A stretch of DNA of 43,434 nucleotides from Crenarchaeota archaeon 13_1_40CM_3_52_17 (lineage in GTDB: Archaea > Thermoproteota > Bathyarchaeia > 40CM-2-53-6): assembly GCA_001918745.1 (NCBI GenBank), contig MNGN01000061.1, positions 1-43,434 of the forward strand, read 5' to 3'. Shown piece by piece: positions 33 to 40,976 of this stretch. The number at the start of each line of letters is the position of its first letter. The stretch's first letter is position 1. Made by a program: the position numbers and the translations under genes. The notes beneath the pieces were generated by a model. It saw only the letters and a list, made by a program, of their open reading frames with translations, had not been told where the DNA came from and did no database searches.

Positions 33-176
33 TGGCGCCGCCGACAGGGTTCGAACCTGTGACCAACGGGTTGCTACAGTGGACGTTCCACTTTAACAGC
101 TTCAGCCTCAGCCACGAGCCGAGTCCGCTGCTCTACCACTGAGCTCGCGCCCCCAAACCTCTGAGGGAACGGCGGC
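33..176 (-). tRNA. tRNA-Asn(GUU) split by three introns
   Basis: Read on the minus strand, the 5' acceptor GCCGCCG (176-170) pairs perfectly with CGGCGGC (43-37), followed by discriminator G and an encoded CCA (35-33). The T arm is ACAGG/CCTGT with loop TTCGAAC. Removing about 23 nt (146-168, between positions 8 and 9), 24 nt (101-124, between 30 and 31) and 22 nt (72-93, at 37/38) leaves a 75-nt cloverleaf with anticodon loop CTGTTAA and stem GCGGG/CCCGT. Each intron fits the bulge-helix-bulge rule: central helices CGCC/GGCG, CAGC/GCTG and CTGT/GTAG, each flanked by two 3-nt bulges cut after their second base. G73 and the loop sequence are typical of tRNA-Asn. An alternative reading with anticodon GAA (Phe) was considered, but G73 argues against it. 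Confidence 0.88.
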
Positions 177-220
177 CCGCGTCATAGCCGGCGGCAACCG
201 ACAACCCGACAAGACCCGTT

Positions 221-228
221 TATTAAAA
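221..228 (-). promoter_or_regulatory. Probable TATA box of the tRNA-Asn gene
   Basis: On the minus strand this reads TTTTAATA, about 45 bases upstream of the tRNA 5' end at 176. A start about 25 bases downstream would leave a leader of roughly 20 nt for RNase P to remove. Seen: the A/T octamer in a GC-rich setting. Inferred: promoter role. Confidence 0.4.
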
Positions 229-490
229 GATAGGCAACCGCGGATATCAGATGAAAAGTCCATCTAAGATGAAGATCGCTCCCAGGGAAACAGGCAAGAA
301 CCACACTGACGTAGGATGGTAGTTGGACTTTTTTCGTGATCTCTGGAGACCCGTGGAGCGTGCAACTAGCCCAAACGAAACCAAGAAGACACCAACGACT
401 ACCGTAACCCAGTTCATGGGTGCAGCCTAGAACTGCTATTTCTCACCACTAAAACATTAAGAATCGAGTTGAGCGAGCGGCCTTCTTGGA
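229..490. other. Intergenic stretch, no gene recognised
   Basis: No convincing coding frame is present; the longest ATG frame (251-322, 23 codons) has no recognisable features. The stretch separates the minus-strand tRNA-Asn from the plus-strand tRNA-CAU and presumably holds the promoters of both. Confidence 0.4.
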
Positions 491-606
491 GGGCCCGTAG
501 CTCAGCTAGGTTTTCTTCAGGTTGAAGAACTGAGAGAGCGGCAGGCTCATAGCCCCAAGTTCGGGAAACCTGACGGTCCCCGGTTCGAATCCGGGCGGGC
601 CCACCA
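491..606 (+). tRNA. tRNA with CAU anticodon (Ile2 or elongator Met), two introns
   Basis: Acceptor GGGCCCG (491-497) pairs with CGGGCCC (596-602), then A73 and an encoded CCA (604-606). The T arm is CCCGG TTCGAAT CCGGG. The anticodon loop is CTCATAA (CAU at 548-550), interrupted after position 37 by about 16 nt (552-567). A second intron of about 24 nt (roughly 512-535) sits in the D loop and forms a 7-bp hairpin TTCTTCA/TGAAGAA. The initiator-type three G-C pairs are absent from the anticodon stem. The acceptor resembles archaeal tRNA-Ile, so an AUA-decoding Ile2 (agmatidine-modified) is as likely as elongator Met. The first anticodon-stem pair (27-43) is a G-A mismatch, and both introns fit only a relaxed bulge-helix-bulge. 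Confidence 0.87.
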
Positions 607-640
607 CTTCCAAGGGGTGAGTACCCCAGGACAGTTGGGC

Positions 641-826
641 CTACAAGTCGCTAGCAACCTTAGCCTTTTTCCAAACCAGGAAAAGGGGGACGGTTGCGCT
701 AACGGCGACAAGTAGAGAGACGTACGGATTTACTGGCATTAGAACGATAGCGATACTGATAATGGCGACAGCAATAACGAACGTCGTTAGGTATTCCAAT
801 CTCGTTGACGACCTTACAAGCTTCAT
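641..826 (-). CDS. Small two-helix membrane protein (hypothetical)
   Basis: 61 residues with two hydrophobic helices (about residues 14-30 and 35-51), a short turn containing NPY, and a basic tail KKAK; I recognise no family. It starts with ATG at 826 and overlaps the start of the opposite-strand RraA remnant by 22 bases. Because it lies where the missing front of that remnant should be, it may be part of newly arrived DNA or a chance frame. The clean two-helix pattern is the only support. Confidence 0.4.
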   Translation of the reverse strand: MKLVRSSTRLEYLTTFVIAVAIISIAIVLMPVNPYVSLLVAVSATVPLFLVWKKAKVASDL

Positions 827-1098
827 CTAAGTGGGATGGTTTCACGGTGAATGATAGTGATGCGGTCTTCGCCGACGATGATGGCGTTCTTTTCGTAGCA
901 TCGAACAGTATCGAAGATGTCCTGAAAGTTGCCAAGTCAATATCGAGCGTTGAACGGCATCAGGCAGAGTCAATTCAGGCTGGAAAGAAGCTTTCTGAAC
1001 AACTTGCCTTCGACCGATACCTGACAAAACGTACCTCGGACCCATCTTACACCTTCGGTAGGCATTTGAAAGAACGAGGGGGAGCAATAGAGGAGTAG
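805..1098 (+). pseudogene. C-terminal remnant of an RraA-like protein
   Basis: The 97-codon frame (TTG start) contains, from about residue 12, the closing part of the RraA / dimethylmenaquinone methyltransferase-like fold: a strand-turn motif FADDDGVLFV, a helix region with an IQAG motif, then a tail ending DPSYTFG..LKERGGAIEE that I associate with this family. Full family members are about 160-230 residues, so half or more is missing. Upstream sequence in this frame does not resemble the family and meets a stop at 775. I read it as a 5'-truncated gene; expression as a short protein cannot be excluded. The next gene follows after 7 bases. Confidence 0.6.
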
Positions 1099-1105
1099 AC
1101 GAAGA

Positions 1106-1735
1106 TTGAGCCATGCGTCATCTGGTCCCCCAGAATATTCGTCCAAGGAGCTTTCGGCGAAAACATGGCCTGATCTTGCCAGACTTTTCGAGAAACCGGA
1201 GATTGGGGATGCGTGGTGGTGTTGGTGCACTTTTCATCACGTGTCCTCTTTCTCAACGCCCGAACACAAACCAGCGCGCACCCGGGCGGAGAGAGCTGGA
1301 AAGAACCGTCGGAACAAGGAAAGTCTGGTCAAGAACGACCGAGCCCACGGGGTAATTGTCTACGCGAACGGGGAACCGGTGGGTTGGTGCCAGTATGGAC
1401 GCAGAGAAGATCTCCCTCGGCTTGACCACAGTCGCAATTATCAAAGTCTCTCGCCTAAAGACAAGAACGAGAAGCTCTGGAGGATAACCTGTTTTGTTGT
1501 TGACAAGAATTATCGCAGAAGTGGTGTAGCGAGTACCGCGCTAAAGGCTGCTCTGGAGAGCATAAGGATCAAGGGCGGCGGTCTAGTCGAAGCCATTCCC
1601 GTAAGCAAGACTGACCAGGGACCAGGCTACATGTACACGGGAACAGTCTCGATGTTCGAGAAGGCAGGGTTCAAGATCGTCGGGCCCTTCGGAACCGGTC
1701 GGACTTCTACTGTTGTTATGCGAAGAGTGATCTGA
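1106..1735 (+). CDS. GNAT-family N-acetyltransferase
   Basis: 209 residues with the acetyl-CoA binding core of the GNAT fold: strand FVVDKNYRRSGVAS (about 137-150), where the R-R-S-G-V-A loop is the pyrophosphate-binding motif A, followed by helix ALKAALESI, and motif B MFEKAGFKIVG near 188-198. The N-terminal part has a Trp/Cys-rich stretch (DAWWCWC) and a basic linker seen in uncharacterised acetyltransferases of this type. The substrate is unknown. Start is TTG at 1106, directly after the RraA remnant. It converges with the 5'-3' exonuclease gene, with 2 bases between the ends. Confidence 0.8.
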   Translation: MSHASSGPPEYSSKELSAKTWPDLARLFEKPEIGDAWWCWCTFHHVSSFSTPEHKPARTRAERAGKNRRNKESLVKNDRAHGVIVYANGEPVGWCQYGRREDLPRLDHSRNYQSLSPKDKNEKLWRITCFVVDKNYRRSGVASTALKAALESIRIKGGGLVEAIPVSKTDQGPGYMYTGTVSMFEKAGFKIVGPFGTGRTSTVVMRRVI

Positions 1736-1737
1736 GC

Positions 1738-2652
1738 TTATTCGGGGTTCCTCGATGTCTTGACCCGGCGCTTCGTAGCGCGCATAATCTCAATTTTAGC
1801 TACACGCTCAACTAGCTTTGCGTCATCGAGTCGCTTGCAAATCTCTGGGAATCCGGTTCTGGGTCCGGTCCAGCGGATTTCTTCCGGCGAAGATATCTTC
1901 GGCTCTCTTGTTCGAAGCGTTGCGAGGTCTCGAAACAAAAGTGCGAGGTTGAAGTTGGTTTCTAGGACTTCTGCAAGGCGTGTGGCGGATCGTGGTTGTA
2001 CCTTCCAGTTTTCCGCCTTTGGGGGAATGGCCTCTAGATGCTTGTAGATGCCTAGGACAATGGCTGTTGATTTGTCTCCCCAGCCTTCCAGACCCGGGTA
2101 TCCGTCAGCATCATCGCCTACCAAGGCGAGATAATCGGGTATCGAACTTGGGGGGACGCCGAACTTCTCTTTGACGCCTGCCTCGTTTCGCACAACTCGT
2201 GCACGACGATCCAACTGGACAATACGGTTGTCTCGAACGCATTGCGCCAGATCCTTATCGGGGGTGCAAATGTATACCCGGCCGACTCTAGGAAGTTTGC
2301 TCAAGGAAGCAGCTGCGCCGGCCAGAGCGTCATCAGCCTCCAGCTCGACCATGGGCCAGACCACAACTCCCATTGCCTGCATCGCCTCTTCAAGCAATGG
2401 AAACTGCGACAAGAGTCGCGGATCAACACCTTCACTCGTCTTGTATCCGGCCCAAAGGTTGTTCCGGAACGATTCTATGACATGGTCTGTCGCAACACCG
2501 ATATGCCTAATTCCGGATTCGAGCATGCCAGCTATGCTGTTGAGCACTCCGCGCGTCGCTGCAATTTCCTCGCCTTTACCGTTAGCTTGGGTGGGGATGG
2601 CGTAGAAATGACGGAACAGTTCGTAGGTGCCATCCACGAGATAGATATCCAC
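1738..2652 (-). CDS. Stand-alone 5'-3' exonuclease (DNA polymerase I N-domain type)
   Basis: 304 residues resembling the PIN/FEN-like 5' nuclease domain of bacterial DNA polymerase I. Acidic metal-binding motifs are visible: LVDG at the N-terminus, ELEADDALA (about 104-112), CTPDKDLAQ (129-137) and VGDDADGYPGLEGWGDKSTA (178-197), the last being the helix-hairpin-helix that contacts DNA. It would remove 5' flaps or RNA primers. Archaea normally use FEN-1 for this, so this bacterial-style enzyme is probably an acquired accessory gene. Start is GTG at 2652. No polymerase domain is attached. Confidence 0.8.
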   Translation of the reverse strand: MDIYLVDGTYELFRHFYAIPTQANGKGEEIAATRGVLNSIAGMLESGIRHIGVATDHVIESFRNNLWAGYKTSEGVDPRLLSQFPLLEEAMQAMGVVVWPMVELEADDALAGAAASLSKLPRVGRVYICTPDKDLAQCVRDNRIVQLDRRARVVRNEAGVKEKFGVPPSSIPDYLALVGDDADGYPGLEGWGDKSTAIVLGIYKHLEAIPPKAENWKVQPRSATRLAEVLETNFNLALLFRDLATLRTREPKISSPEEIRWTGPRTGFPEICKRLDDAKLVERVAKIEIMRATKRRVKTSRNPE

Positions 2653-2698
2653 CTTCTAACAGCCTTCATCTGATCCAATGGGTTAGAGGTGAATATGG

Positions 2699-3074
2699 TT
2701 ACTTCTTCTGCTGAATTTCCTTCATTCGGAACATGACGATTTTCTTCACTAGATCATACGGGATGGGCCGGTCCAGCGGGAATCGTAGGGACCCTTTCTC
2801 ACCGGCGTAGGGGGTTAGTTCTCTTCTGAAGGCTTCATTGCCTTCGGGTATGGAGTAAAGTCCGATATGACTTTTCCAGCCGCTGAAGTAGACTAGTCTC
2901 TCCCCTTTTATTTTGAAGGTAGGCATATCGTAGCTGATAGACTCCGCTGCCTCAGGTGATGCCTGCCGTATTGTTTCCCTAAGCTTCCGCAAAATGCGCC
3001 GAACGTTTTCTGGGAACGACGCGATGTATTCGTCTACTGTTTCGAATTTCTTGGCGGCTACTATTCTCGTTCAC
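2699..3074 (-). CDS. DUF1801/YdhG-like protein with disrupted or unusual start
   Basis: The product has the DUF1801 fold: SISYDMPTFK, YFSGWKSHIGLY and FPLDRPIPYDLVKKIV. Translation from the first accepted start (TTG at 2992) gives 97 residues, but clear family sequence (KFETVDEYIASFPENV) continues upstream in the same frame to a stop at 3071-3073 without any ATG, GTG or TTG there. A GTG at 3074, well placed after an AT-rich box on the minus strand near 3105-3118, would need a one-base shift to join. So the gene is either frameshifted near its start, begins at a rare codon (ATA), or carries a sequence error. Function unknown; related proteins are small iron-chaperone/YdhG-like. Confidence 0.65.
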
Positions 3075-3169
3075 CCGTGAGGCGCTTCGTCCTGGTGTTC
3101 GACACTAATATTTTATTTCTCGTTACCTGTATATCCCCTTAGCATCGTCCTAGCCTTGGTGACTATGAC

Positions 3170-3442
3170 TTGAAAGGAATACCCCACACTGTCAAAGTTG
3201 AAAGGAGGGGAAATGAACTGATAGTTCATATTGCCCTGACTGAAAGAAAAAGTTGGGACAGAACTGGTGTTATTTTAGCATCCGAGGGTTGGCAAGATAT
3301 AGGATATGGATTGAAGATGCAGTTGACAATTGCTTCAACTAATGTTGTCCTTCAAAAGGAGAGGATTAAGCTGATACAGAAGCCTGGAATACTCAATCGT
3401 CTACGTGGAAAGAAGATACCGATGCTGGAGGATAGGTCTTGA
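3170..3442 (+). CDS. Hypothetical protein
   Basis: 90 residues, starting TTG at 3170. The predicted pattern is mostly beta: VKVERRGNELIVHIAL, then VILASEGWQDIGYGLKMQLTIAS, and a basic tail. I recognise no family. The DNA is more AT-rich than its neighbours, and an A/T-rich box (TGTATAT, near 3128-3134) sits an appropriate distance upstream. It could be an acquired gene. Confidence 0.45.
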   Translation: MKGIPHTVKVERRGNELIVHIALTERKSWDRTGVILASEGWQDIGYGLKMQLTIASTNVVLQKERIKLIQKPGILNRLRGKKIPMLEDRS

Positions 3443-3566
3443 GATGCCTAGCTCTCTCTACCGAAAAATGGGATTTTCACAACGAAGCTCAAGATCGAGG
3501 TTCAGAACTCCCAACGCGTTTTCCTGGTCGTCTAGAGAGACGTTCGTTAGTTTGATTCTTCGTTTG

Positions 3567-4055
3567 TTAGAAGGACCCTTTTCTTAGATTGATCCCGTGT
3601 TCCAAGTAGGCTTTCAAGCAGCAAGTCATCTGTGTCCAGCCTTGACAGTTCCCATACGAGCCTTGCAGACCGGTCGCTGTAGACCGCCATTTCCCCTCAA
3701 CTATCTTCACAAGCGTCTCTTTCGCGTTCAATGGTTCGAAACTCATCTCGACAACAGTATCGTATCCGCCGGATTCTGGCATTGAACCGGTTTTCAGGTC
3801 ATAGAGCCCCTCGCTCGCTTCCCAGGAGAATCGGATTAGTTTGTTTCGCACTACCTTCTGCACCTTCACCGGGGCCTCTACGACTTTGTCTCCAACGTCA
3901 TTGAATTTCCAGAGCACTGTCTTTCCTTCGTCCAGTGGTCCATTGGAACCTCCAGAAGTGAAGTAGCTAGTGAGCTTCTTCGGGTTGTGGACGGCCTCAA
4001 AGACCTCGCTTACTGGTTTCTGGATTTTGGTCTGAACGGTGAAACTTAGATCCAT
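3567..4055 (-). CDS. SRPBCC / AHSA1-type ligand-binding protein
   Basis: 162 residues of the START-like (SRPBCC) helix-grip fold, AHSA1 branch: N-terminal strand FTVQTKIQKPVSEVFEAV, then LTSYFTSGG, W-x-F strand VLWKF, and C-terminal helix GWTQMTCCLKAYLEHG, which covers the cavity. Members are soluble and bind hydrophobic ligands; many are paired with ArsR regulators. Here the gene is divergent from an ArsR-type regulator across a 114-bp gap that holds a perfect palindrome, a classic arrangement. Start is ATG at 4055. The ligand is unknown. Confidence 0.8.
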   Translation of the reverse strand: MDLSFTVQTKIQKPVSEVFEAVHNPKKLTSYFTSGGSNGPLDEGKTVLWKFNDVGDKVVEAPVKVQKVVRNKLIRFSWEASEGLYDLKTGSMPESGGYDTVVEMSFEPLNAKETLVKIVEGKWRSTATGLQGSYGNCQGWTQMTCCLKAYLEHGINLRKGSF

Positions 4056-4085
4056 GTTTGACTGACTCTGACCATGCCGGCTATA

Positions 4086-4103
4086 TGTTATATATTTATA
4101 ACA
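4086..4103. promoter_or_regulatory. Palindromic operator candidate between AHSA1 and ArsR genes
   Basis: Perfect 7-base inverted repeat TGTTATA-TATT-TATAACA, lying 31 bases upstream of the AHSA1 ATG and 67 upstream of the ArsR TTG. It overlaps the only TATA-like sequence available to the AHSA1 gene, so a bound dimeric ArsR protein would block transcription factor access. Seen: the symmetry and location. Inferred: the regulator that binds. Confidence 0.6.
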
Positions 4104-4169
4104 CTTTGCTCAACTCCAAGGGATCCGCTATGAGCATCAACCTGGACAGATCTGCCCGGAGAAGGTAGC

Positions 4170-4496
4170 TTGGGGAGAGAGGACAAGTACGATCCGATCT
4201 TCAAAGCACTCAGCGACTCTCGGCGGCGCGAGATACTCGACCTACTCAAAGAAAGAGCAAGAACAACGGGAGAATTAGTCGAACACTTCAAACAATTGGA
4301 CCGATGCACCGTGATGCAGCACCTAAGCGTTCTCGAAAAGGCCGACCTGATCATAGTGAGACGTGAGGGGCGTCTTCGCTGGAATTACATCAACCCCCTT
4401 CCCATCAAAGAATTGCATGACCGATGGATTGGCAGCTACGCGGACGGTGCGGTCGATCTTCTAGCCCGAATGAAACGCGAAATCGAAGGATGCTAG
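4170..4496 (+). CDS. ArsR-family winged-helix transcriptional regulator
   Basis: 108 residues. The HTH core is clear: DPIFKALSDSRRREILDLLKE, then TTGELVEHFK and recognition helix region CTVMQHLSVLEKADLI, followed by wing VRREGRLRWNYIN. No metal-binding cysteine motif (ELCVCDL type) is present, so it is probably not a metal sensor but the ArsR/AHSA1-pair type. It is transcribed away from the AHSA1 gene, and the palindrome at 4086-4103 is the obvious binding site. Start TTG at 4170 chosen by the N-terminal family pattern. Confidence 0.85.
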   Translation: MGREDKYDPIFKALSDSRRREILDLLKERARTTGELVEHFKQLDRCTVMQHLSVLEKADLIIVRREGRLRWNYINPLPIKELHDRWIGSYADGAVDLLARMKREIEGC

Positions 4497-4538
4497 GGCA
4501 TACATACCCACCTACCCAGATGCGGTTGGCTAATCATC

Positions 4539-5633
4539 TTGACCGAGACGAAGACTACGACAAGGCCAAACATTGTCAACTTAGATGAGCTAGAACAACA
4601 AGCAAAGAAGCAGCTCGACCAAGCTAGCTACGATTTCGTGGCTGGCGGCGCCGGCTCCGAGCTAACCCTGAGGGCCAACCTGGAAGCTTTTCAGAAAATA
4701 ACGATAATGCCTCGGGTCCTCACCGGAATCAAGAAGGTCGACACATCGATTGATCTCCTCGGTCAGCGACTGTCCATGCCGATCTACGTCACTCCGATGG
4801 CCAACCACGGAGTCGTCCATCCTTTGGCCGAGGTTGGAAGTGCTCAAGGTGCGAAGAAGGCAGGCACGCTCTTCGTTGCTCCGACAGGCTCCAACAAGAC
4901 GATGGAGGAAGTTGCAACATCAATCAAGGACAGCCCTCGATGGTTCCAGCTATACCTCAACAAGGATCCCGAAATCAACAAACAACTACTACGGCGAGCA
5001 GAGAAAGCAGGCTACTCTGCAATCGTTCTGACAGTCGACTTACCGGTGCTAGGCATGAGGGATCGCAATATCAGAAACAGCTTGACACTACCAAAAGATC
5101 TTAGCAGTCCGAACGGCCTATCCGAGCGATTCATAGCCGCGACAAGGGGTCTTGAGTCTCTTACGGCGGGCATCAAAGACGACTTGGGCTGGGACGATTA
5201 CGAATGGACACGAGAGCATACTTCTCTGCCTGTCTTGATCAAAGGAGTCCTTTCCCCCAATGACGCGGAGGAAGCTGCAAAGCGCAAGGTCCCTGCGATC
5301 ATCGTCTCGAATCATGGGGGAAGACAACTCGATACTGGTTTTGGAGCAATCCAAGCCTTGCAACCAATAATCGAGAGAGTTGGAGGCAAAACGAAAGTAC
5401 TGTTCGACAGCGGAATCAGAAGGGGAACTGATGTCTTCAAAGCACTGGCATTGGGCGCTGAAGCGGTTGGTATCGGACGACCGGTATTATGGGGTCTCGC
5501 GATCTACGGTGCAGACGGGGTGGCTGCAGTTTTGAAACACTTGCAAACCGAGCTTGTCAACGTGATGAGGCTAGCGGGCGTCGCGAAGGTCAGTGACGTT
5601 TCTTCAGAATACATCGAGACGAACGACTGGTGA
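4539..5633 (+). CDS. FMN-dependent alpha-hydroxy-acid oxidase/dehydrogenase
   Basis: 364 residues, the full length of the glycolate/lactate oxidase family, a TIM barrel that oxidises L-2-hydroxy acids to 2-oxo acids with FMN. Visible motifs: N-terminal YDFVAGGAGSE, FMN-site PTGSNKTMEE region, FQLYLNKD, VLTVDLPVLGMRDRN, LIKGVLSPNDA (catalytic-side Lys), and the signature SNHGGRQLD (about residues 258-266), with the base His and substrate Arg. The C-terminal phosphate loop is DSGIRRGTDVFKALALGA. Lactate is the commonest substrate but cannot be read from sequence. Start TTG at 4539. It suggests a heterotrophic or organic-acid-using lifestyle. Confidence 0.88.
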   Translation: MTETKTTTRPNIVNLDELEQQAKKQLDQASYDFVAGGAGSELTLRANLEAFQKITIMPRVLTGIKKVDTSIDLLGQRLSMPIYVTPMANHGVVHPLAEVGSAQGAKKAGTLFVAPTGSNKTMEEVATSIKDSPRWFQLYLNKDPEINKQLLRRAEKAGYSAIVLTVDLPVLGMRDRNIRNSLTLPKDLSSPNGLSERFIAATRGLESLTAGIKDDLGWDDYEWTREHTSLPVLIKGVLSPNDAEEAAKRKVPAIIVSNHGGRQLDTGFGAIQALQPIIERVGGKTKVLFDSGIRRGTDVFKALALGAEAVGIGRPVLWGLAIYGADGVAAVLKHLQTELVNVMRLAGVAKVSDVSSEYIETNDW

Positions 5634-5693
5634 GAAAGGTCTACTGTGTTGTCTTGCACAGGACTAATGTGATAGAACCTCTCAGTCATCTCA

Positions 5694-6104
5694 ATGACTC
5701 GGGAACTGCCCTTACTGATCGGTACAGTTGGAACGGTTTTTGGGTTCTTTTCTTTGTTGGGGGTCTTTTTTGTATTCGCTCTCTTGTCACGCCCGGGCGA
5801 GATTGCACGAACGGACTTACCTCTCTGGCTTGAGCTATCTGTTCTCGTGTGGGCTGCTAGCCCCTTCATTGGATTAGCTGGGGCGTTGAGGGTGCAGAAG
5901 GGGGGGCGACTGGGCGGAGTGCTTTTCGTCGTTGCGGGTGCTCTTCCCTTGATTGTGAGTATGGGGGCGTTCTTACTACTTCAGTTGTGGACTCCACTGT
6001 TAATTGTCGCTGGCATATTGGCCATTTTGGATTTGCCGGGGCCGTACGTAGATAAGGAAGAGATGGATGGCTTGGCAGGGGAGAACTCCGCCCAGCCATC
6101 GTGA
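5694..6104 (+). CDS. Small multi-pass membrane protein
   Basis: 136 residues with about four hydrophobic segments (roughly 7-32, 46-65, 75-95 and 96-112) and a soluble acidic tail (DKEEMDGLAGEN). I recognise no family. Start ATG at 5694. It lies alone downstream of the FMN oxidase. Confidence 0.55.
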   Translation: MTRELPLLIGTVGTVFGFFSLLGVFFVFALLSRPGEIARTDLPLWLELSVLVWAASPFIGLAGALRVQKGGRLGGVLFVVAGALPLIVSMGAFLLLQLWTPLLIVAGILAILDLPGPYVDKEEMDGLAGENSAQPS

Positions 6105-6371
6105 TCGCTAACTGGAAAGGCCTTGTCTTTACTCTATTCTGTAAATAAGGTAGTTAGGCAAAACTCGTCCAGCTTGAAGATTCGAGACGGGCCGCATAAG
6201 AGAATTGACTCGAACAAGTCAAATCCTCATCCCTAATCAGGAGACTGTCTCTCGCGTTATCTTGACATGTGCGAAGAAGAATCTTTGGCTGTGGCGAAGA
6301 TGTTAACTATGTAAAATGGTCATATTGGCAATTTCCGGCAAGACTATTTCTTGAAATCCGGTATACCCACC
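6105..6371. other. Intergenic stretch, no gene recognised
   Basis: About 270 bases with no convincing frame and no tRNA-like T arm on either strand. A short inverted repeat GACTCGAAC/GTTCGAGTC-like segment near 6208-6222 was inspected and does not lead to a cloverleaf. Confidence 0.35.
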
Positions 6372-6965: not shown

Positions 6966-7041
6966 TATCGACAAGCCTTTCTGCCAAGCCTCCTTCTCGG
7001 CCCGGACGATCTCGTTCCAAGCCCGCGTGCGGGTCTGTTAT

Positions 7042-8139: not shown

Positions 8140-8186
8140 CCAGTCCAACACCCGAGAGCAGGCTGGCGCTAATCCACAGGGTCATC

Positions 8187-8706: not shown

Positions 8707-8731
8707 GACCATTCTTCTCTAGCTATTGAGT

Positions 8732-9400: not shown

Positions 9401-9407
9401 TGATGAT

Positions 9408-26916: not shown

Positions 26917-27027
26917 TGCTCCGGCCGGGACATTCAGGCTCTTTGGAGCCTTTTGAACCCGGGTCGCCGGATCGAGAGTCCGGCATACTTTCGGCCAAAC
27001 TTGTGGACCGGGCTATACTACCGGAGC
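26917..27027 (-). tRNA. Cryptic tRNA-Glu(CUC) with D-loop and T-loop introns
   Basis: On the minus strand the acceptor GCTCCGG (27027-27021) pairs with CCGGAGC (26924-26918), then discriminator A; no CCA is encoded. The D region starts TAGTATAGCCCGG, the anticodon arm is CCGGA CTCTCGA TCCGG (anticodon CTC), and the T arm CCGGG TTCAAA^T CCCGG is interrupted after position 59. The T-loop intron (26931-26951, 21 nt) is a textbook bulge-helix-bulge: central TTCA/TGAA, inner hairpin GGCTC/GAGCC, bulges AA^A and TG^T. A 15-nt D-loop intron (about 26990-27004; central CGGT/GCCG) completes it. The spliced product is 75 nt, a normal tRNA-Glu. Confidence 0.88.
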
Positions 27028-29723: not shown

Positions 29724-29743
29724 TACGCTGGCCTAGCAGCCTC

Positions 29744-31310: not shown

Positions 31311-31344
31311 AAGCCAGCCCGAACACCCTATCCGTGATTCTTGG

Positions 31345-32556: not shown

Positions 32557-32649
32557 TTTTCTCAGAAAATATTCCTTTGAGAATAGGCTAACAAACGTTA
32601 ATAACAGAAGTTTGCCGCGGGACACATTCAAACCCTTGAGTTTGAGAAA

Positions 32650-33855: not shown

Positions 33856-33868
33856 GCTAACAAAGCGC

Positions 33869-34942
33869 ATGAGTCAAGCCCGTCGGGGACTCCTCGGAAG
33901 AATCGCTGCCGGAGCAGTTTCATTCACCGTCCTAACGTATATCCTAGCTATTGGAATATCGTTCGGCTTAGTCACCTCCCCCCAATTCGCTGGCCAGCTA
34001 GAGAACATCAGAGTACATTTCTTCACGGGGGCCTTCTTCATCTACCCAATAATTACGCCACTTCCTGTCGACCTGCTTCTTCTCACCGACACTTGCATAA
34101 TCATTTACTTGGCTTGCTTCATCGTCGCATTCAGATCTAGAGACGGTTTTCTGGCCGGATTGCAACGCCTTCGGCAAGTGGGGCGAATCAGTTTCAAATC
34201 TAGCTGGCTCGTCTCAATGCCCCTGGTCTCTTGCGCCCTACTCCTCCTCGTCTTGGTTTCAACAATCATCCTAAACCAATCCGGTCTCCCTTCAGGAACC
34301 CTTTGCAATCCCTGCCCCCCTCAAGCTGAACTCTACGCGCTTCTCACCTATTCACCAATTAGCGAAGAGATCGCCTTCAGGATTACGACTCTAGGACTAC
34401 TAGTCTCCATATTGACAATCTGGAAAAGCCGTTCAATCCAGCAAGGATCAAGGCCGAAAACCCCTTCGCTTGTTGTGGCCTCATTTCTATCTCCAGAATC
34501 AGCGAAAGCCAGGGTGGGACTTCCCACGATCACAACTAATGGGCGGAACGGGATCCACTGGAGCGAATGGATCTTGTTGTTCCTAACATCCTCTTTCTTT
34601 GGGATAGCCCATATCCTTTCGGGAGGAACAGATTGGGGCGTCGGCAAAGCCGCCACCGCCGCAATCTCGGGATTCGTATTGGGCGTGGTCTACTTGGGAT
34701 ATGGAGCTTACGCCGCGATCTTGTTGCACTGGTTCTTCGATTTCTACTTTGAAACATTCAGCGTGGGAGCGAATGTGTTCGGGGGCGCTGTTGCCACCCT
34801 TCCGGGCCTCGTATCTCTAGCCACCTTAATTGTCGGAGCCATCTCGATCGTCGTCGCTCTAGCTTGGATAATCAGACGAATAGCACGCGGTGAAATTCCA
34901 ACGACTTATAAGCCACCTGAAGCTGCGCCTTACTCTGTTTAA
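33869..34942 (+). CDS. CPBP-family intramembrane metalloprotease
   Basis: 357 residues with about eight membrane helices. The CPBP (CAAX-protease/bacteriocin-processing) motifs are present in order: SEEIAFRI (EExxxR, about 166-173), SSFFGIAHIL (FxxxH, about 241-250), and LLHWFFDF (HxxxD/N type, about 289-296). These form the metal site inside the membrane. An insertion of about 60 soluble residues (KSRSIQQGSRPKTP... to TNGRNGIHWSEW) between the first and second motif is unusual. Start ATG at 33869. Confidence 0.82.
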   Translation: MSQARRGLLGRIAAGAVSFTVLTYILAIGISFGLVTSPQFAGQLENIRVHFFTGAFFIYPIITPLPVDLLLLTDTCIIIYLACFIVAFRSRDGFLAGLQRLRQVGRISFKSSWLVSMPLVSCALLLLVLVSTIILNQSGLPSGTLCNPCPPQAELYALLTYSPISEEIAFRITTLGLLVSILTIWKSRSIQQGSRPKTPSLVVASFLSPESAKARVGLPTITTNGRNGIHWSEWILLFLTSSFFGIAHILSGGTDWGVGKAATAAISGFVLGVVYLGYGAYAAILLHWFFDFYFETFSVGANVFGGAVATLPGLVSLATLIVGAISIVVALAWIIRRIARGEIPTTYKPPEAAPYSV

Positions 34943-34983
34943 GTGAGGAGCTTGCATCACCGCCAAGTCCGACAGAACTGAAT

Positions 34984-37491
34984 TTGAGCCGTTCACTCAC
35001 TAGGGAAATTGAGAATTCTTCTCAGGCTGGATTGGGAACCGGCCGCAATTATGCCTTGGACAAGAACTTTGATCCGGCGGCCGAAGAATCTAAGTGGCGT
35101 GAATATTGGCGAGAGCACGACATCTACCACTTTGATCCCCTCGACAAATCACGTAAGACTTACAGTATCGACACCCCGCCCCCATATCCCAGCGGTGATT
35201 TTCACGTTGGAAACGCTCTAAACTGGTGCTACATCGATTTCGTAGCACGGTACAAACGGATGAAAGGGTTCAACGTTCACTTTCCCCAAGGTTGGGACTG
35301 CCATGGACTCCCGACCGAGGTTAGAGTAGAACAGACGTTCAAAATACGCAAGAACGATTTGCCACCGGAACAGTTCGTCGAGATGTGCCGCAAACTCACT
35401 GGCGAATACATCGCCAAAATGAAACAATCGATGAATCTGCTTGGAATATCCTCCGACTGGGCTCTAGAATACAAGACGATGGACCCTTCGTATTACAAGC
35501 TCACTCAACTCTCCTTCATCGAACTTTTCAAATCAGGGCACCTATACCGCGGCGAGCACCCCGTGAATTGGTGTCCTCGTGACGAGACGGCGATAGCAGA
35601 AGCAGAAGTGGTCTACCAAGAACGAAAAGGGACACTACATTACATGCGATTCGGGCACGCTAACGAACACATCGAGATCGCATCCACGCGCCCCGAGCTT
35701 CTCTCAGCCTGCGTCGGAATTGCTGTACACCCCAAGGATGAGAAGTACAAACTGGTGGTAGGAAAAACCATTGCGGTTCCCATCTTCGGCCAGCAAGCAC
35801 GCGTAATTTCCGATGACGAAGTGGATCCCCGCTATGGTACAGGAGCTGTAATGATTTGCACGTTCGGAGACAAGACTGACGTGCGATGGCAGGCAAAATA
35901 CCATCTTCCAGTCATCAAGGCCCTAACAGAAAATGGCAGATTATCCGTTGACGACCCACGATTCAAAGGACTCAAGGCCGAAGAAGCAAGAAGGAAAATA
36001 GTCGCCGAACTTCAAGCATCGGGACTACTCACCAAGACGGAACCGATAACCCAGAATATCGGAACATGTTGGCGATGCCAAACCCCTGTCGAGATTATCG
36101 CAAGACCTCAATGGTTCATGAAGACCCGCGACCTGACCCAAAAGGTTGTAGAGTGGGCCGGGAAACTAGACTGGATCCCATCCTTCTCTAAACAACGACT
36201 CATCGACTGGGCCGAATCTCTCGACTGGGATTGGGTGGTTTCCAGACAGAGAATTTTTGCCACTCCTATACCCGTTTGGTACTGCACGAAATGCGAGTCA
36301 ACAATCATCCCCAACGAAGAGAGCCTGCCAGTCGACCCTCGCAAGGACAAGTCGCCAGGAGAAGAATGCCCGAGGTGTGGCAACCGTGAGCTTAGAGGCG
36401 AAACAGATGTGCTCGACACATGGATGGACTCGTCCATAACCGCCGCGGTTCATGCCGGATGGCCTAACAAGTCAGAGCTATTCAACCGACTCTTTCCAGC
36501 GGACCTTCAGCCAAACGGGCTCGACATCGTTCGAACATGGGACTATTACCTACTAGTTAGAAGTCTCGCATTGTTCGGCAGACCTCCCTACAAGACACTC
36601 CTCATCAACGGCATGGTAAAAGGAACTGATGGCCGCATGATGCACAAATCCTACGGAAATTACGTTGTAGCAGATGAGGCGATCAAGAAGGTCGGTGCTG
36701 ACGCGCTTCGACAATGGGCAGCCGCTGGCGGATCGACCGGTTACGACATACCCTTCCGTTGGAACGAACTTGAACACGGGAAGAAGTTCTTGACCAAGCT
36801 CTGGAACGTAACCAGATTCGTTCTTGCCAACACCACCGAACCCCTACGTCTGAAGAAACCCAGTACCCTCTCCCTCATTGATCGTTGGCTTCTAGCTTCA
36901 CTTCAGGAGTTGATACAGAAAGTATCAGAGGCATTTGAGACGTTCCAGTTCAACACGGCCTTGGAAGCGATAAGGAACTTCACCTGGCATGCGCTCGCCG
37001 ATGATTACTTGGAAGCAGTCAAGCATAGGCTCCAGACTGGAAGGGAGCTCTCTGACCTCACGGCAACCCAATATTGCCTGCGGGAAGCCGTATTGACCAT
37101 TTGCAAACTCCTCGCACCCATATGCCCCCACATCTCAGAAGCAGTCTACCAACAATTCCCATCAGAAGCCACTAAGAGCGTCCACTTGGAAAGCTGGCCA
37201 GAGCATGAAAAAGCGCTCGACGATACTTCGATCCGCAACGGCAGGTTTCTTCTAGATCTAATCGCTCATGCTCGACGCGAGAAATCCTCGAAGGGTCTCT
37301 CGCTGGGCTCGAACATCAAGCGGATCATAGTAAGTACTGAGGCCGAACACCTCCACCTTCTGAAGGAGAACGAGGAGACTATTCTCCGAACGCTCAAAGC
37401 AGATTATATGGACCTCGAACGCTTGCCCTTGAATTCCAATCAAGTAGGGGAATCAAGTGCAGGATTCGTTGTCGAAATCATCGCAAAGTAG
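34984..37491 (+). CDS. valS: Valyl-tRNA synthetase
   Basis: 835 residues, class I. The HIGH motif reads HVGN in PPPYPSGDFHVGNALNW (about 71-74). The editing domain (about 200-350) contains ASTRPELLSACVGIAVHP and YGTGAVMICTFGDKTD. Zinc-type Cys pairs CWRC and CTKC...CPRC are visible. The KMSKS loop reads MMHKS in DGRMMHKSYGNYV. Anticodon-binding helices and a short C-terminus complete an archaeal-type ValRS; similarity to Ile/Leu enzymes is expected, but ETAIAEAEVVY and WDWVVSRQRIFATPIPVW favour Val. Start TTG at 34984. Confidence 0.9.
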   Translation: MSRSLTREIENSSQAGLGTGRNYALDKNFDPAAEESKWREYWREHDIYHFDPLDKSRKTYSIDTPPPYPSGDFHVGNALNWCYIDFVARYKRMKGFNVHFPQGWDCHGLPTEVRVEQTFKIRKNDLPPEQFVEMCRKLTGEYIAKMKQSMNLLGISSDWALEYKTMDPSYYKLTQLSFIELFKSGHLYRGEHPVNWCPRDETAIAEAEVVYQERKGTLHYMRFGHANEHIEIASTRPELLSACVGIAVHPKDEKYKLVVGKTIAVPIFGQQARVISDDEVDPRYGTGAVMICTFGDKTDVRWQAKYHLPVIKALTENGRLSVDDPRFKGLKAEEARRKIVAELQASGLLTKTEPITQNIGTCWRCQTPVEIIARPQWFMKTRDLTQKVVEWAGKLDWIPSFSKQRLIDWAESLDWDWVVSRQRIFATPIPVWYCTKCESTIIPNEESLPVDPRKDKSPGEECPRCGNRELRGETDVLDTWMDSSITAAVHAGWPNKSELFNRLFPADLQPNGLDIVRTWDYYLLVRSLALFGRPPYKTLLINGMVKGTDGRMMHKSYGNYVVADEAIKKVGADALRQWAAAGGSTGYDIPFRWNELEHGKKFLTKLWNVTRFVLANTTEPLRLKKPSTLSLIDRWLLASLQELIQKVSEAFETFQFNTALEAIRNFTWHALADDYLEAVKHRLQTGRELSDLTATQYCLREAVLTICKLLAPICPHISEAVYQQFPSEATKSVHLESWPEHEKALDDTSIRNGRFLLDLIAHARREKSSKGLSLGSNIKRIIVSTEAEHLHLLKENEETILRTLKADYMDLERLPLNSNQVGESSAGFVVEIIAK

Positions 37492-37520
37492 AATCTCTTT
37501 CCGCCTGATGCGTTAGCGGC

Positions 37521-37781
37521 TCATCGACCTAGTGAGTCTCTCGTCTGACGGTCTGCGAAGAGTTGGATCCGTCCGCAGCTTTGGCAGACGAAGGCGTCAA
37601 AATGGAGGACCCCTTCTCCCAGCTCGGCCCAGCTCCCAAACAAAAAGTGTGCGGCCCCACTCGTTCCTCCGGTCCTGAACGGAATGTCTCCTAAGTCTGT
37701 CATAGCTACGTTGCAAGATGAACACCTTTGCGAGAACACCGGTTTGGGCCGCTGAATCTGACACTCGCTACCGCTAAGCAA
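37521..37781 (-). CDS. Zinc-ribbon protein with FRTGG motif
   Basis: 86 residues. CSSC near 19-22 and CQSCGRI near 67-73 form a zinc ribbon around the conserved core DIPFRTGGTSGAAHFLFGSWAELGE. I recognise this as a small conserved ribbon family seen in archaea and bacteria but cannot give a function. Start TTG at 37781. It converges with valS. Confidence 0.65.
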   Translation of the reverse strand: MLSGSECQIQRPKPVFSQRCSSCNVAMTDLGDIPFRTGGTSGAAHFLFGSWAELGEGVLHFDAFVCQSCGRIQLFADRQTRDSLGR

Positions 37782-37869
37782 CGATAGCGATGAGAAGGCT
37801 TAAGCTTTGATGGGTCGGCTGTGATTAGAGCTAGCCGTTTAGTCTCTGGCTCTAACTTAGGGTCAAGTC

Positions 37870-37877
37870 TTATATCG
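37870..37877 (+). promoter_or_regulatory. TATA box and long leader before the TRAM gene
   Basis: TTATATCG about 155 bases before the ATG at 38028. If used, the mRNA would have a leader of about 130 nt, long for this genome, with a hairpin GCAAG-TTCTCG-CTTGC near 37949-37964. A second weaker A/T box lies near 37970. Another hairpin, TTAGAGC/GCTCTAA, lies just upstream of the box (about 37823-37856). Confidence 0.35.
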
Positions 37878-38027
37878 TAACCGCCCTGAAAAACAGTTTC
37901 AGAAGGCGTCTTTGGGCCGTCCGGTCACGATGAGAATGGTTTCCCGCAAGTTCTCGCTTGCAGCAATCTTTTCATATTGACCCATCACGGTTCAGACCCC
38001 TTAACAAACAAAGGATTGCAAGAAAGA

Positions 38028-38417
38028 ATGGGAGAAGAACGACCGAGAAGAAGTTACGGGCGAAAGGGCGGCTACTCTAGAAGTGGCGGAGGAAGCAGTG
38101 GAGGAAGTTATGGCCGAGGCGGTGGAGGTGGAAGCTACGGCCGCGGCGGAGGAGGCGGTGGCGGGCGAGGGTATGATCGCGGTTACGACCGCGACCGCGG
38201 ACAGGACCGAAACCGAGGACCGGCACCCGTCGAAGAAGGTCAAGAAGTAGATGTCACGATCGACTCCGTCGGCAAGCGAGGGGACGGGATAGCCCGAATC
38301 AACAACTTTGTAGTCTTCGTACCTGGCACAAACCAAGGCGACCAAGTAAAAGTTAGAATAACATCGGTAAGAGGCAACTTCGCGACCGGAGAAGTCGTAA
38401 CGGGAGAACAACAGTGA
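38028..38417 (+). CDS. RGG-rich TRAM-domain RNA-binding protein
   Basis: 129 residues from ATG at 38028 (TTG 37977 would add 17). The N-terminal 60 residues are an Arg/Gly/Tyr low-complexity region with repeated SYGRGGGGG and YDRD units; the C-terminal 60 are a TRAM domain: EEGQEVDVTIDSVGKRGDGIARINNFVVFVPGTNQGDQVKVRI. Free-standing TRAM proteins act as archaeal RNA chaperones, comparable to cold-shock proteins. The RGG arm would add non-specific RNA binding. Stop overlaps the OB-fold gene by 4 bases. Confidence 0.85.
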   Translation: MGEERPRRSYGRKGGYSRSGGGSSGGSYGRGGGGGSYGRGGGGGGGRGYDRGYDRDRGQDRNRGPAPVEEGQEVDVTIDSVGKRGDGIARINNFVVFVPGTNQGDQVKVRITSVRGNFATGEVVTGEQQ

Positions 38418-38707
38418 AGATCGCGGAACTCAAACCTGGAATGAGAAGGGTAGACGTCGCGGGGAAGATCGTCGACATGGAAACTCCCAGAGACGTGCAG
38501 ACAAAGTTCGGACCTGGACAGGTTGCCAGTGCAACGCTTCAAGACGAGTCTGGAACGGTCAAGGTCACCTTGTGGAACGAGAACATAACAAAAGTAGCGG
38601 TCAACGACACTGTCCAAATCGAAAATGGATATGTTGACTCCTTCAGAGGAGAGCTCCAACTTAACGTCGGAAGATATGGGAAGCTAGCAAAAGTAGAGTC
38701 GGCTTAG
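38414..38707 (+). CDS. OB-fold single-stranded nucleic-acid-binding protein (RPA/SSB-like)
   Basis: 97 residues, one OB fold: MRRVDVAGKIVDMETPRDVQTK, then SATLQDESGTVKVTLWNENITKVAVNDTVQIENGYVDSFRGELQLNVG. The pattern is that of archaeal RPA/aspartyl-tRNA-synthetase-like OB domains (VxGKIVxx...xxxDxSGxxxxxLWxxx). It lacks the acidic tail of crenarchaeal SSB. GTG start at 38414 is translationally coupled to the TRAM gene, so the two products are made together. Confidence 0.82.
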   Translation: MKIAELKPGMRRVDVAGKIVDMETPRDVQTKFGPGQVASATLQDESGTVKVTLWNENITKVAVNDTVQIENGYVDSFRGELQLNVGRYGKLAKVESA

Positions 38708-38764
38708 ACACGAATTCTAGGACCGTAGGGTCCCGGATCTGCAGCTCCTTGCAGGACATTCTAG

Positions 38765-39592
38765 CTATTCGATACTGACTTTTGGAGACGACGTATCTGG
38801 TGCGCCGAGCGTGTATCTGGTGAGCACAGTCTTTCTCTGCTGGTTCTCGACTTGAGCCACCACTTCAATGAAACCCTCGATCTTCGTTCCGAGTATCTTC
38901 TTCTTCAATAATTGATCGACCTGGAAAATCCCTGACTCATTGTACATGCTTATCTCAACGATGACAGGTTTCTGTTTGCTCTTCCGGATTTTCACATCCC
39001 TAATCGACATCGCCGAAAGTGCATGGATGTCCTTCTTCCCTGCGGTAAACGGAATCCTGGCCCGGCCCTCTTTCATATCCAACGCGTCCGCGACCCTCAC
39101 AACCCCGGCTTCGATTGTAAATTGTGGGATCTCAGATTCGTGAGCGTAAATCGTGTGAAGAGCCTCTGCAGTGACGATAGCCCTCTCCTTCTCCCCGTAT
39201 ATGCCCGTCAACAGCCCTGGTATGATCTGAGCTGCTAGAGAAACGCTAAAGATCTGATGGTTCTCCCTATGGGCAACCATTCCCAAGTCGTGCAGCACCG
39301 ACCCTAGGAATACAACAACTTCAGCGTCATCATGGGTGAGCTTGTGATCGGTGACTATACTCGGTTCCACGCCAGCCTCGATCAAATTCCGAAGAATCTT
39401 CAAACCAATGTTCGAGACGATAGCAAAGTGGACTCTCCCGTGATCTGAAAGTCCTAGCCTCCGGACTGCATTGGTGTTTATGCAATCCCAGAGACTCTGC
39501 AGATACTCGTCACCATTGACGCGGTCAAGAACTGTTTTGAGTTTCTGATTCGAGTTGTAAGGCAGATTAATCGTGATAATACGCACCGACAA
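38765..39592 (-). CDS. HD-domain metal-dependent phosphohydrolase
   Basis: 275 residues. H of DHGRVHFAIV, then GSVLHDLGMVAHRENHQIFSV (the HD pair) and a later Asp in VRVADALDMKEGRARIPF make the HD site. The C-terminal 80 residues (VKIRKSKQKPVIVEISMYNESGIFQVDQLLKKKIL...) form a beta domain. It likely cleaves phosphodiester or nucleotide substrates. Start ATG at 39592 on the basis of the N-terminal frame. No neighbour indicates a substrate. Confidence 0.78.
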   Translation of the reverse strand: MSVRIITINLPYNSNQKLKTVLDRVNGDEYLQSLWDCINTNAVRRLGLSDHGRVHFAIVSNIGLKILRNLIEAGVEPSIVTDHKLTHDDAEVVVFLGSVLHDLGMVAHRENHQIFSVSLAAQIIPGLLTGIYGEKERAIVTAEALHTIYAHESEIPQFTIEAGVVRVADALDMKEGRARIPFTAGKKDIHALSAMSIRDVKIRKSKQKPVIVEISMYNESGIFQVDQLLKKKILGTKIEGFIEVVAQVENQQRKTVLTRYTLGAPDTSSPKVSIE

Positions 39593-39693
39593 TCGGTCTC
39601 TTCCTCCGGCGCTTCAAAAAGGTTCTCGAACCCAAGACGGAAAGTCAAATTACTCTCCAGGTGCCGACATCGTCGTGCATGCGAGTTGTCAGT

Positions 39694-40464
39694 ATGAAAC
39701 TTGAAAATGTCGACTACGCGGTCGCGAATCATCTGGCCCGAATAGAAATGAATCGTCCACAAGTCCTCAACGCACTCTCCAAGGGAATGTTTCGCGACCT
39801 GAGAAATGCATTGAGGCTAGCCACTGAAAATAGGGATGCACGAGTTGTCGAGATAACCGGTGCTGGAACGGCATTCTCCGCTGGTCTCGACGTGAGAGAG
39901 GTCGGAGGGTTCAAGTCTAGAGCCGAAGCAAAAGAATTCGTTTACGGACTCGTTAAGCCCTTCTGGGACCAACTCTTCAAATGCGAGAAGCCAGTAATAT
40001 CGCTAGTCGATGGGCCGGCCTACGGTGCAGGTGCGGAAATTGCACTTGCGTCCGACATCGTCATTGCATCCACGGAATCAACGTTCGCGTTCTCGGGTGG
40101 ACGAGTCGGGGCGCTCTGCTGCATGTCAGGAATAATCGGACCATCCCTAATGAATGGAAGAAAACTTGTAGAGATGAACCTAACCGGGACTCCTCTCAAC
40201 GCATCTGAAGCGACGAACTACGGGCTTGTCAACTATTCAGTTCCGAGGGAGGAGCTGACTGGAACGCTAGAGAAGATTATTCGAGAGATCATGCATGTAT
40301 CTCCCATTTCCAACTCCAGCTTCAAACGAATCAGAAAAACAGACCTGTCGAAGACAAAGATGGAGACAGGGTACAGGGAACTCCTGAGAACGATAACCAG
40401 CAAGGACTTTCGAGAGGGATCCAGTGCTTTCGTAGCAAAGCGACCCCCCGAATACTACCGATGA
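39694..40464 (+). CDS. Enoyl-CoA hydratase/isomerase (crotonase) family protein
   Basis: 256 residues from ATG at 39694 (GTG 39661 and ATG 39679 also possible). Crotonase motifs: IEMNRPQVLNALSKGMF, oxyanion-hole AFSAGLDVREVG and GPAYGAGAEIALASDIVIAS (Glu retained at the first acid position). The second catalytic acid region reads RVGALCCMSGIIGPSLMN with no Glu, so a simple hydratase reaction is doubtful; isomerase, hydrolase or lyase members share this pattern. It acts on acyl-CoA. No other beta-oxidation genes are adjacent. Confidence 0.8.
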   Translation: MKLENVDYAVANHLARIEMNRPQVLNALSKGMFRDLRNALRLATENRDARVVEITGAGTAFSAGLDVREVGGFKSRAEAKEFVYGLVKPFWDQLFKCEKPVISLVDGPAYGAGAEIALASDIVIASTESTFAFSGGRVGALCCMSGIIGPSLMNGRKLVEMNLTGTPLNASEATNYGLVNYSVPREELTGTLEKIIREIMHVSPISNSSFKRIRKTDLSKTKMETGYRELLRTITSKDFREGSSAFVAKRPPEYYR

Positions 40465-40543
40465 CAGGATTCTCTCCGGCCCTGAATGTCCCGACAGCGA
40501 GATTCAATATCACTGTCAGATTAGACCCGAGGTGAAAGAGTCC

Positions 40544-40640
40544 TTATATCTGGTCCAGCGACCTGTTCGTGTAGGCTGGAAAGTGCAGGCTCAAGCGAGA
40601 GCCAGCAAGCCAGTACAATGGCAAAATAGAGGTGTAAGAA
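40544..40640 (+). ncRNA. Possible small structured RNA or leader
   Basis: A good TATA box (TTATAT, 40544-40549) is followed at the expected start distance by a hairpin: GCTGG (40575-40579) with CCAGT (40610-40614), an internal loop, then GGCTC/GAGCC (40588-40592, 40599-40603) and loop AAGCGA, with an ACA directly after the lower stem (40615-40617). This is reminiscent of a single-hairpin H/ACA RNA, though the lower stem is shorter than usual. It may instead be the leader of the zinc-finger gene at 40647. Confidence 0.25.
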
Positions 40641-40646
40641 TAACAA

Positions 40647-40796
40647 ATGCGAGGAGGAAATTGGAAGGGCAGGAACGTTCGAACCGAAATGAAGACCTTA
40701 GAATGCCCTCGATGTCACGACCACGTACGATTGGACAAGTACACTGTTCATATCGCCTCTTGTCCCCAACCAGCCGTTGCTAATACAGCGGCCTAG
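40647..40796 (+). CDS. 49-residue C2HC zinc-finger protein
   Basis: ATG at 40647 (ATG 40689 gives a 35-residue version). The core CPRCHDHVRLDKYTVHIASC has spacing C-x2-C-x11-H-x3-C, the same as Rad18-type UBZ4 fingers of eukaryotes and of some archaeal micro-zinc-finger proteins. The Cys/His spacing makes a chance frame unlikely. The N-terminal 14 residues are basic. It ends 11 bases before the 3' end of the convergent tRNA-Ser gene. It probably binds nucleic acid or protein. Confidence 0.55.
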   Translation: MRGGNWKGRNVRTEMKTLECPRCHDHVRLDKYTVHIASCPQPAVANTAA

Positions 40797-40806
40797 TTGA
40801 GTTATT

Positions 40807-40976
40807 TGGCGCCGGGAGTGGGATTCGAACCCACGCGGCCCTAACGGGCCACAGGCTCTCAAGGCCTACGCTCTCACATCGCTGGAAGATCTGCGCCTTT
40901 AGACCCACATCAGCAGGTTAATCCACTCGGCCAACGGGATGCAAGAAACCCAACCGAATCCTTGCATTATCCCGGC
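40807..40976 (-). tRNA. tRNA-Ser(UGA) split by three introns
   Basis: Acceptor GCCGGGA (40976-40970) pairs with TCCCGGC (40817-40811), then G73 and an encoded CCA (40809-40807). Class II variable arm GGCCC-GTTA-GGGCC, T arm GTGGG TTCGAAT CCCAC, and anticodon arm CAGGC CTTGAGA GCCTG (anticodon TGA) are clear. Introns: 36 nt at 8/9 (40933-40968; hairpin ATGCAAG/CTTGCAT), 20 nt in the D loop (40899-40918), and 25 nt at 29/30 (40866-40890). Central helices CGGG/CCCG, GGAT/GTCT and GCGC/GCGT with two 3-nt bulges each satisfy the bulge-helix-bulge rule. The 8/9 position is shared with tRNA-Asn. Confidence 0.9.

Follow-up and report, generated by a model that had tools for sequence, protein, structure and literature searches.

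A stretch of 43,434 nt of contig MNGN01000061.1 (referred to as a whole as the window), from the metagenome-assembled genome (MAG) of an uncultured archaeon, carries four tRNA genes that are interrupted by introns: tRNA-Asn(GUU), a tRNA gene with the anticodon CAU, tRNA-Glu(CUC), and tRNA-Ser(UGA), which contain three, two, two, and three introns, respectively (Table 1). The acceptor stem of the CAU tRNA suggests that it is perhaps tRNA-Ile2 rather than tRNA-Met. An original prediction, made from the DNA letters, had proposed these genes and their ten introns; explicit decoder runs recovered all of them at the same junctions, which lie at positions 8/9 (twice), in the D loop (three times), and at 29/30, 30/31, 37/38 (twice), and 59/60. 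The presence of four interrupted tRNA genes in the window is confirmed. Once the introns are removed, the exons join into standard cloverleaf tRNAs with the conserved residues. A test for split or permuted tRNA genes was negative; all four genes are collinear in cis. ARAGORN reported no tRNA in the window, thereby missing all four genes, and Rfam returned one tRNA match at threshold (Asn, 44–145, minus strand) and one below threshold (Ser, 40810–40881, minus strand).

The decoder devised for this study finds the acceptor stem, excises introns only where a bulge-helix-bulge (BHB) motif can form, and scores the cloverleaf that remains. The window introns show the expected BHB architecture, a central helix of 4 bp with two 3-nt bulges that are each cut after the second base. 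Eight introns had been predicted to contain the 4-bp central helix; indeed, all four central pairs are present in eight of the ten, and five (the three Asn introns, Glu 59/60, and Ser 8/9) are retained when at least two outer and at least two inner helix pairs are also demanded. The D-loop junctions are uncertain by a few nucleotides, with two equal-scoring parses for the CAU gene and three for the Ser gene. For CAU, we took the parse that agrees with an intron-free gene of the relative G016 (L067); for Ser, the choice fell on the parse consistent with G016 and G018 (L numbers denote individual loci and G numbers the genomes in the comparison). The CAU parse is obtained under loose rules only. 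The three-intron parse of Ser likewise needs loose rules, and tight rules lead to a two-intron parse with a slightly lower score.

Table 1 Interrupted tRNA genes, their introns, and genes for exon ligation in the window
Feature	Position	Strand	Basis
tRNA-Asn(GUU) gene, mature 72 nt, three introns	36..176	-	decoder; Rfam tRNA match 44-145
Asn intron 8/9, 23 nt, strict BHB (4 central, 4 outer, 3 inner pairs)	146..168	-	decoder
Asn intron 30/31, 24 nt, strict BHB	101..124	-	decoder
Asn intron 37/38, 22 nt, strict BHB (2 of 4 central pairs G-U)	72..93	-	decoder
CAU-anticodon tRNA gene, two introns	491..603	+	decoder
CAU D-loop intron, 22 nt, 3/4 central pairs	513..534	+	decoder
CAU intron 37/38, 16 nt, 3/4 central pairs	552..567	+	decoder
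tRNA-Glu(CUC) gene, two introns, CCA not encoded	26917..27027	-	decoder; alignment with four relatives
Glu D-loop intron, 15 nt, 4/4 central pairs	26990..27004	-	decoder
Glu intron 59/60 (T loop), 21 nt, strict BHB	26931..26951	-	decoder
tRNA-Ser(UGA) gene, three introns	40810..40976	-	decoder; alignment with relatives
Ser intron 8/9, 36 nt, strict BHB	40933..40968	-	decoder; inner helix covaries
Ser D-loop intron, 20 nt, 4/4 central pairs (two G-U)	40899..40918	-	decoder
Ser intron 29/30, 25 nt, 4/4 central pairs	40866..40890	-	decoder
Archease, RtcB ligase partner	42356..42796	+	PF01951, E 3.8e-40
RtcB tRNA-splicing ligase, gene start, runs off window end	42915..43434	+	PF01139, E 1.4e-18, residues 60-119 of 173

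The same pattern extends through the genome, a MAG of 1.78 Mb in 66 contigs that is 80% complete. A search of the MAG for small-subunit rRNA found none. The AdoMet (S-adenosylmethionine) synthetase encoded in the window is 96–98% identical over its full length to its counterparts in the Candidatus Bathyarchaeota MAGs BA_3 and BA_21 to BA_25, whose sample names, with their depths in cm, point to soil as the source. On this evidence, the genome belongs to Bathyarchaeota. A search with RF00005 at E 10 gave 34 matches, 14 of them above cut-off. Thirty matches with loci plus L095, L096, and L097 were supplied to a script version of the decoder (L098, a weak match, could not be parsed and was left out of the count), which at its threshold decoded 30 genes with 56 introns; two genes had none, seven had one, 14 had two, and seven had three. 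Five genes were added by hand (Glu-CUC with two introns, Ser-CGA with one, Arg-CCU with two, Arg-UCU with one, and Asp with three), as was the third Ser-UGA intron. The total comes to 35 tRNA genes (30 from the script and five by hand), of which 33 have introns and 24 have at least two, with about 66 introns or 1.9 per gene. The initiator CAU tRNA (L016), which is distinct from the CAU tRNA of the window, also carries two introns. The hand counts are less firm, and for Arg-CCU and Asp an explicit BHB test covers only the 30/31 and 4/5 introns, respectively; the junctions assigned by the script to Glu-UUC, Leu-UAA, Lys-CUU, and Pro-CGG look wrong, and their intron counts were retained.

Arg-GCG and Leu-CAG (L002 and L004) are free of introns in this genome. 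The statement that no intron-free tRNA was found therefore holds for the window and fails for the genome, and "every tRNA" is true of the window only. Intact intron-free copies of the window genes, sought as a possible refutation, did not appear: the 14 tRNA matches above cut-off include neither another Asn, Glu-CUC, or Ser-UGA gene nor another CAU gene of the elongator type, and in a genome that is 80% complete such a copy could still lie in the missing part. A pattern search for T arms produced 32 matches, 28 of which fall in tRNA genes, compared with three in a backward control. The other four (L101–L104) gave no parse as tRNA genes and were taken as chance. Orphan T arms were considered as parts of split tRNAs; they turned out to belong to ordinary genes with two or three introns (L095, Ala-GGC; L096, Pro-UGG; L097, Trp).

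Several individual tRNA genes show further peculiarities. In tRNA-Asp (L027, and similarly L181), an intron apparently lies inside the acceptor stem at 4/5, which leaves a first exon of four bases, so that leader bases contribute to the central helix of the BHB. Arg tRNAs with the anticodons UCU and CCU (L009, L110, L129, L117, and L272) apparently have C rather than the near-universal U at position 33; the usual U is found in another Arg-UCU gene of G005 (L163). The 37/38 introns of tRNA-Trp (L097, L187, L209, and L237) are 63–68 nt long, have ATGA(A/G)GA in common, and contain a stretch complementary to their own anticodon arm with no or one mismatch. These features are reminiscent of the tRNA-Trp introns of other archaea that contain box C/D guides; an Rfam search of the Trp-gene regions gave sub-threshold matches only, those with the lowest E values being tmRNA-like.

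Controls indicate how often the decoder would produce such genes by chance. None of the reversed loci could be parsed (0/30 for this genome and 0/34 for G022; 0/64 in total). When exons were kept and introns were shuffled, the identical mature tRNA came back in 3 of 480 trials; any parse was obtained in 107 of 480, and a score equal to or above the real one in 8 of 480. These trials cover the 24 genes that could be parsed tightly, with Ser-UGA represented by the two-intron parse of the script; four intron-bearing genes that lack a tight parse, including the window CAU gene, lie outside. Moreover, the same script left 21 of the 34 genes of one relative intron-free, which argues that introns are not forced on tRNAs.

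Conservation follows the proposed gene anatomy. For 20 genes with equal intron sites in this genome and in G005, a member of the same genus, identity is 99.2% in exons, 86.6% in introns, and 62.2% in flanks. The Ser 8/9 intron could be compared in nine sequences (the window and eight relatives), in which it measures 22–36 nt and keeps the BHB throughout. Its helix is paired in 94.9% of 117 cells compared with 35–47% in slid versions, and five cells representing three pairs have changed on both sides. The numbers of paired cells and of doubly changed cells as well as the covariation score were each reached by 0 of 500 shuffles.

Relatives also provide natural intron-free versions. A gene with the same anticodon and no intron exists in G016, G018, G021, or G022 for 17 of the 28 script-decoded intron-bearing genes, and in ten of the 17 the predicted spliced tRNA aligns with its intron-free relative end to end without gaps, as in Gly-UCC (97% identity) and the initiator (93%). 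Median identity is 0.84 to the intron-free gene of the same anticodon compared with 0.77 to the best match among intron-free genes with a different anticodon. Decoding of six Bathyarchaeota genomes with the same script and threshold revealed 19 introns in 34 genes of G022 (Bathyarchaeota B26-2), 43 in 36 of G016 (same order), 26 in 19 of G021 (Bathyarchaeota RBG_13_38_9), 51 in 33 of G018 (same order), 56 in 30 of the present genome, and 67 in 35 of G005. Per decoded gene, the lowest density is thus 0.56 introns and the highest 1.91. The numbers of loci supplied were 35, 31, 23, 36, 34, and 39, respectively; because some loci gave no parse and others gave two, small differences in density carry little weight. 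In each of the two members of the genus, the genes without introns are Arg-GCG and Leu-CAG. An intron-free Ala-UGC gene of G005 was not accepted as genuine, since it adjoins tRNA-Ile in a bacterial-looking rRNA spacer and is probably contamination; without it, G005 has 67 introns in 34 genes, and the six-genome range still counts it. The region in question, on contig C19 of G005 (L071 and L087), places intron-free tRNA-Ile and tRNA-Ala genes side by side as in a bacterial rRNA spacer, which points to probable contamination of that MAG.

The genome encodes candidate machinery for removing such introns. Two PF01974 genes correspond to the α (L064, 189 amino acids) and β (L065, 196 amino acids) subunits of the splicing endonuclease. 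The α subunit, whose best match is 3p1z (E 1.3e-42), retains the motif GPGIDHAPF and a Lys further on; by homology, the His of this motif is presumably catalytic. The β subunit lacks the GIDHAP stretch of α. By sequence, the enzyme is of the (αβ)2 type, with separate genes for a catalytic α and a structural β subunit. In alignment, a loop of α reads Lys-Pro-Lys where 3p1z has Lys-Pro-Arg, and Lys-Pro-Lys is found in all five aligned α subunits (IPKPKP in G000, G005, and G021; IPKPKV in G022; VSKPKP in G018). This loop fits the definition of the Crenarchaea-specific loop, which lies near the active site and has Lys followed by Pro or Val and next by Lys or Arg (PMC12397907), and which the crenarchaeal (αβ)2 endonuclease bears (PMC6379350). 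The same loop occurs in the intron-poor G022, so that possession of the enzyme is not enough to bring introns. Only a β-like endonuclease gene was found in G016. For ligation of exons, the window itself holds genes for archease and RtcB (Table 1). The RtcB sequence reads GVGYDIN followed by CLSGDSRVL, the Pfam match ends at about this point, and the new stretch resembles the start of an intein. This position is a known intein insertion site of RtcB; the RtcB start, cut by the window end, gave no match to intein families.

Together, these observations lead us to conclude that the four loci are very probably functional tRNA genes carrying BHB introns of the archaeal kind, which are predicted to be spliced and part of which would have been gained within Bathyarchaeota. 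The precursor would fold such that every exon-intron junction lies in a bulge. The (αβ)2 endonuclease, with its Lys-bearing loop, would cut both bulges even where the helix is imperfect or the site lies outside the anticodon loop, and RtcB together with archease would join the exons. Where two introns are close neighbors, one would have to leave before the BHB of the other can form; that neighboring introns need to be removed in order has been stated (PMC8450103). The enzyme type, which an intron-poor relative possesses as well, would have been in place before the part of the load that was gained within Bathyarchaeota.

A number of points weigh against this interpretation. The intron counts depend on the decoder of this study, and a tight parse is lacking for 4 of the 28 interrupted genes that the script decoded. 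Both CAU introns have only 3 of 4 central pairs, and the BHB test found none for the Ser-CGA intron. In the covariation analysis of Ser 8/9, the number of doubly changed pairs was reached by 31 of 500 shuffles and that of pair types by 477 of 500. Gaps were needed to align 7 of the 17 spliced tRNAs with their intron-free relatives, and the 92% gap-free identity of the window CAU tRNA to G016 L067 involves some circularity, as G016 guided the choice of its junction. Finally, the Asn introns at 8/9 and 30/31 occupy the same sites in all four other genomes in which Asn was decoded (G005, G018, G016, and G021; Asn is undecoded in G022), so that some introns must be old.

The age of these introns bears on an alternative in which the ancestor of these Bathyarchaeota was already rich in introns, relatives with few of them, B26-2 for example, have undergone loss, and no large gain took place. 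This history, possible though unlikely in our estimation, would account for the Asn sites common to G018, G016, and G021 and for 37/38 introns, which occur in all six genomes. Other sites are distributed differently. The Asn 37/38 intron is present in G005 and G021 and missing from G018 and G016. The Ser-UGA 8/9 intron is absent from L048 and L061 and from every decoded Ser-UGA gene outside the genus (G016, G018, and G022). The exact Ser string joined across 8/9 occurs intact in 6 of 41 genomes of the class (verified as Ser-UGA for G016 alone, L260) and in none of the four genomes of this genus, our own included; the genus genomes have matches with one mismatch, which in our genome is the Ser-CGA gene. 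Intron presence varies even within the genus: Ser-UGA 29/30 is absent in L052 and L040, which sit in G023 and G024, genomes that agree with the same-genus G002 and G012 in match count and positions, and the Arg-CCU 30/31 intron, 16 nt here, is missing in G005. Introns at 53/54 are confined to the genus among the introns listed. The original prediction, which raised the case of massive intron gain in an apparently different lineage, is supported in part, as regards genuine BHB introns, a genome-wide load, and some lineage-specific gain.

If introns were gained, they could have spread by transposition of ready-made copies between tRNAs, as has been reported for Thermoproteales. Identical positions do recur in many tRNAs, and the sister genes Gly-UCC and Gly-GCC of G005 both have 26-nt introns at 53/54. 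However, no pair among the 56 script-decoded introns of our genome is more alike than shuffled introns (no pair scores 11 or more, and shuffles give 0–2 such pairs), which makes this route improbable; the test covers our own genome, and old copies would no longer be visible in 11–65 nt. It is extremely unlikely that the four window genes are decayed pseudogenes or assembly artifacts, even though ARAGORN misses all four and the MAG stands at 80% completeness. Other named MAGs have conserved Ser and Glu genes, Asn, CAU, and Ser recur in G005 with equal intron sites or counts, exons are much better conserved than flanks, and no intron-free second copies occur among the 35 genes found in this incomplete genome. 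Returning to interrupted, functional genes as the preferred interpretation, it is tempting to speculate that the genus has the densest tRNA introns counted to date in any organism (about 1.9 per gene) and reached this load through continuing gain of unrelated short introns, without transposition, atop a loop-bearing endonuclease that was already there in an intron-poor relative; a permissive enzyme would then be necessary and not sufficient. We give this proposal about an even chance of being correct.

Multi-intron tRNAs were thought in the original prediction to be known chiefly from Thermoproteales. This view is outdated: in three genomes of the Asgard Atabeyarchaeia and Freyarchaeia, 228 introns interrupt 92–95% of tRNA genes, over half of them multiply (PMC11291895). 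Among the complete genomes assessed, Pyrobaculum calidifontis has the most introns (71 in 46 tRNA genes), and Thermoproteales average 0.84 per gene (PMC8450103). The present genome resembles Thermoproteales such as P. calidifontis in having BHB introns at non-canonical sites, with a maximum of three in one gene, and has the loop-bearing (αβ)2 endonuclease in common with crenarchaea. It differs in lineage and in density (1.9 introns per gene compared with 1.54, by different methods); moreover, similar introns are reported to occur in different tRNAs of Thermoproteales (Fujishima 2010, as cited in PMC4033280), whereas this genome shows no trace of transposition. The likeness to the Asgard genomes lies in the fraction of interrupted genes (33 of 35 here), in the share with multiple introns (24 of 35 here), and in non-canonical positions. 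Those genomes represent another lineage and are complete, whereas ours is a draft; the word endonuclease is absent from the text of PMC11291895. As in tRNA-Thr of Caldiarchaeum subterraneum (PMC3293823), the presence of an intron differs among close relatives. A mobile element is tied to that case; none is tied to an intron here, though TnpB-like open reading frames adjoin tRNA-Ser. These two frames (41155–42214, minus strand) overlap in different reading frames; one matches PF07282 (Cas12f1-like TNB domain) and the other no Pfam family, and together they are perhaps a broken TnpB-like gene. We found no report of a comparable tRNA intron load for Bathyarchaeota in the open literature, a weak absence given that subscription journals are mostly uncovered.

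These Bathyarchaeota represent a third archaeal lineage, beside Thermoproteales and Asgard archaea, in which almost all tRNA genes are interrupted, and their relatives form a graded series in intron density. Because one species has the Ser 29/30 or Arg-CCU 30/31 intron and a congener lacks it cleanly, the mode of gain is testable. The archaeal mode of tRNAscan-SE 2.0 was built for such introns (PMC8450103). If other simple searches perform as ARAGORN did here, tRNA counts of such draft genomes may be too low.

Elsewhere in the window, a 5'-3' exonuclease (1738–2652, minus strand) combines PF02739 and PF01367. These domains are those of bacterial DNA polymerase I, and their presence is unexpected in an archaeon.

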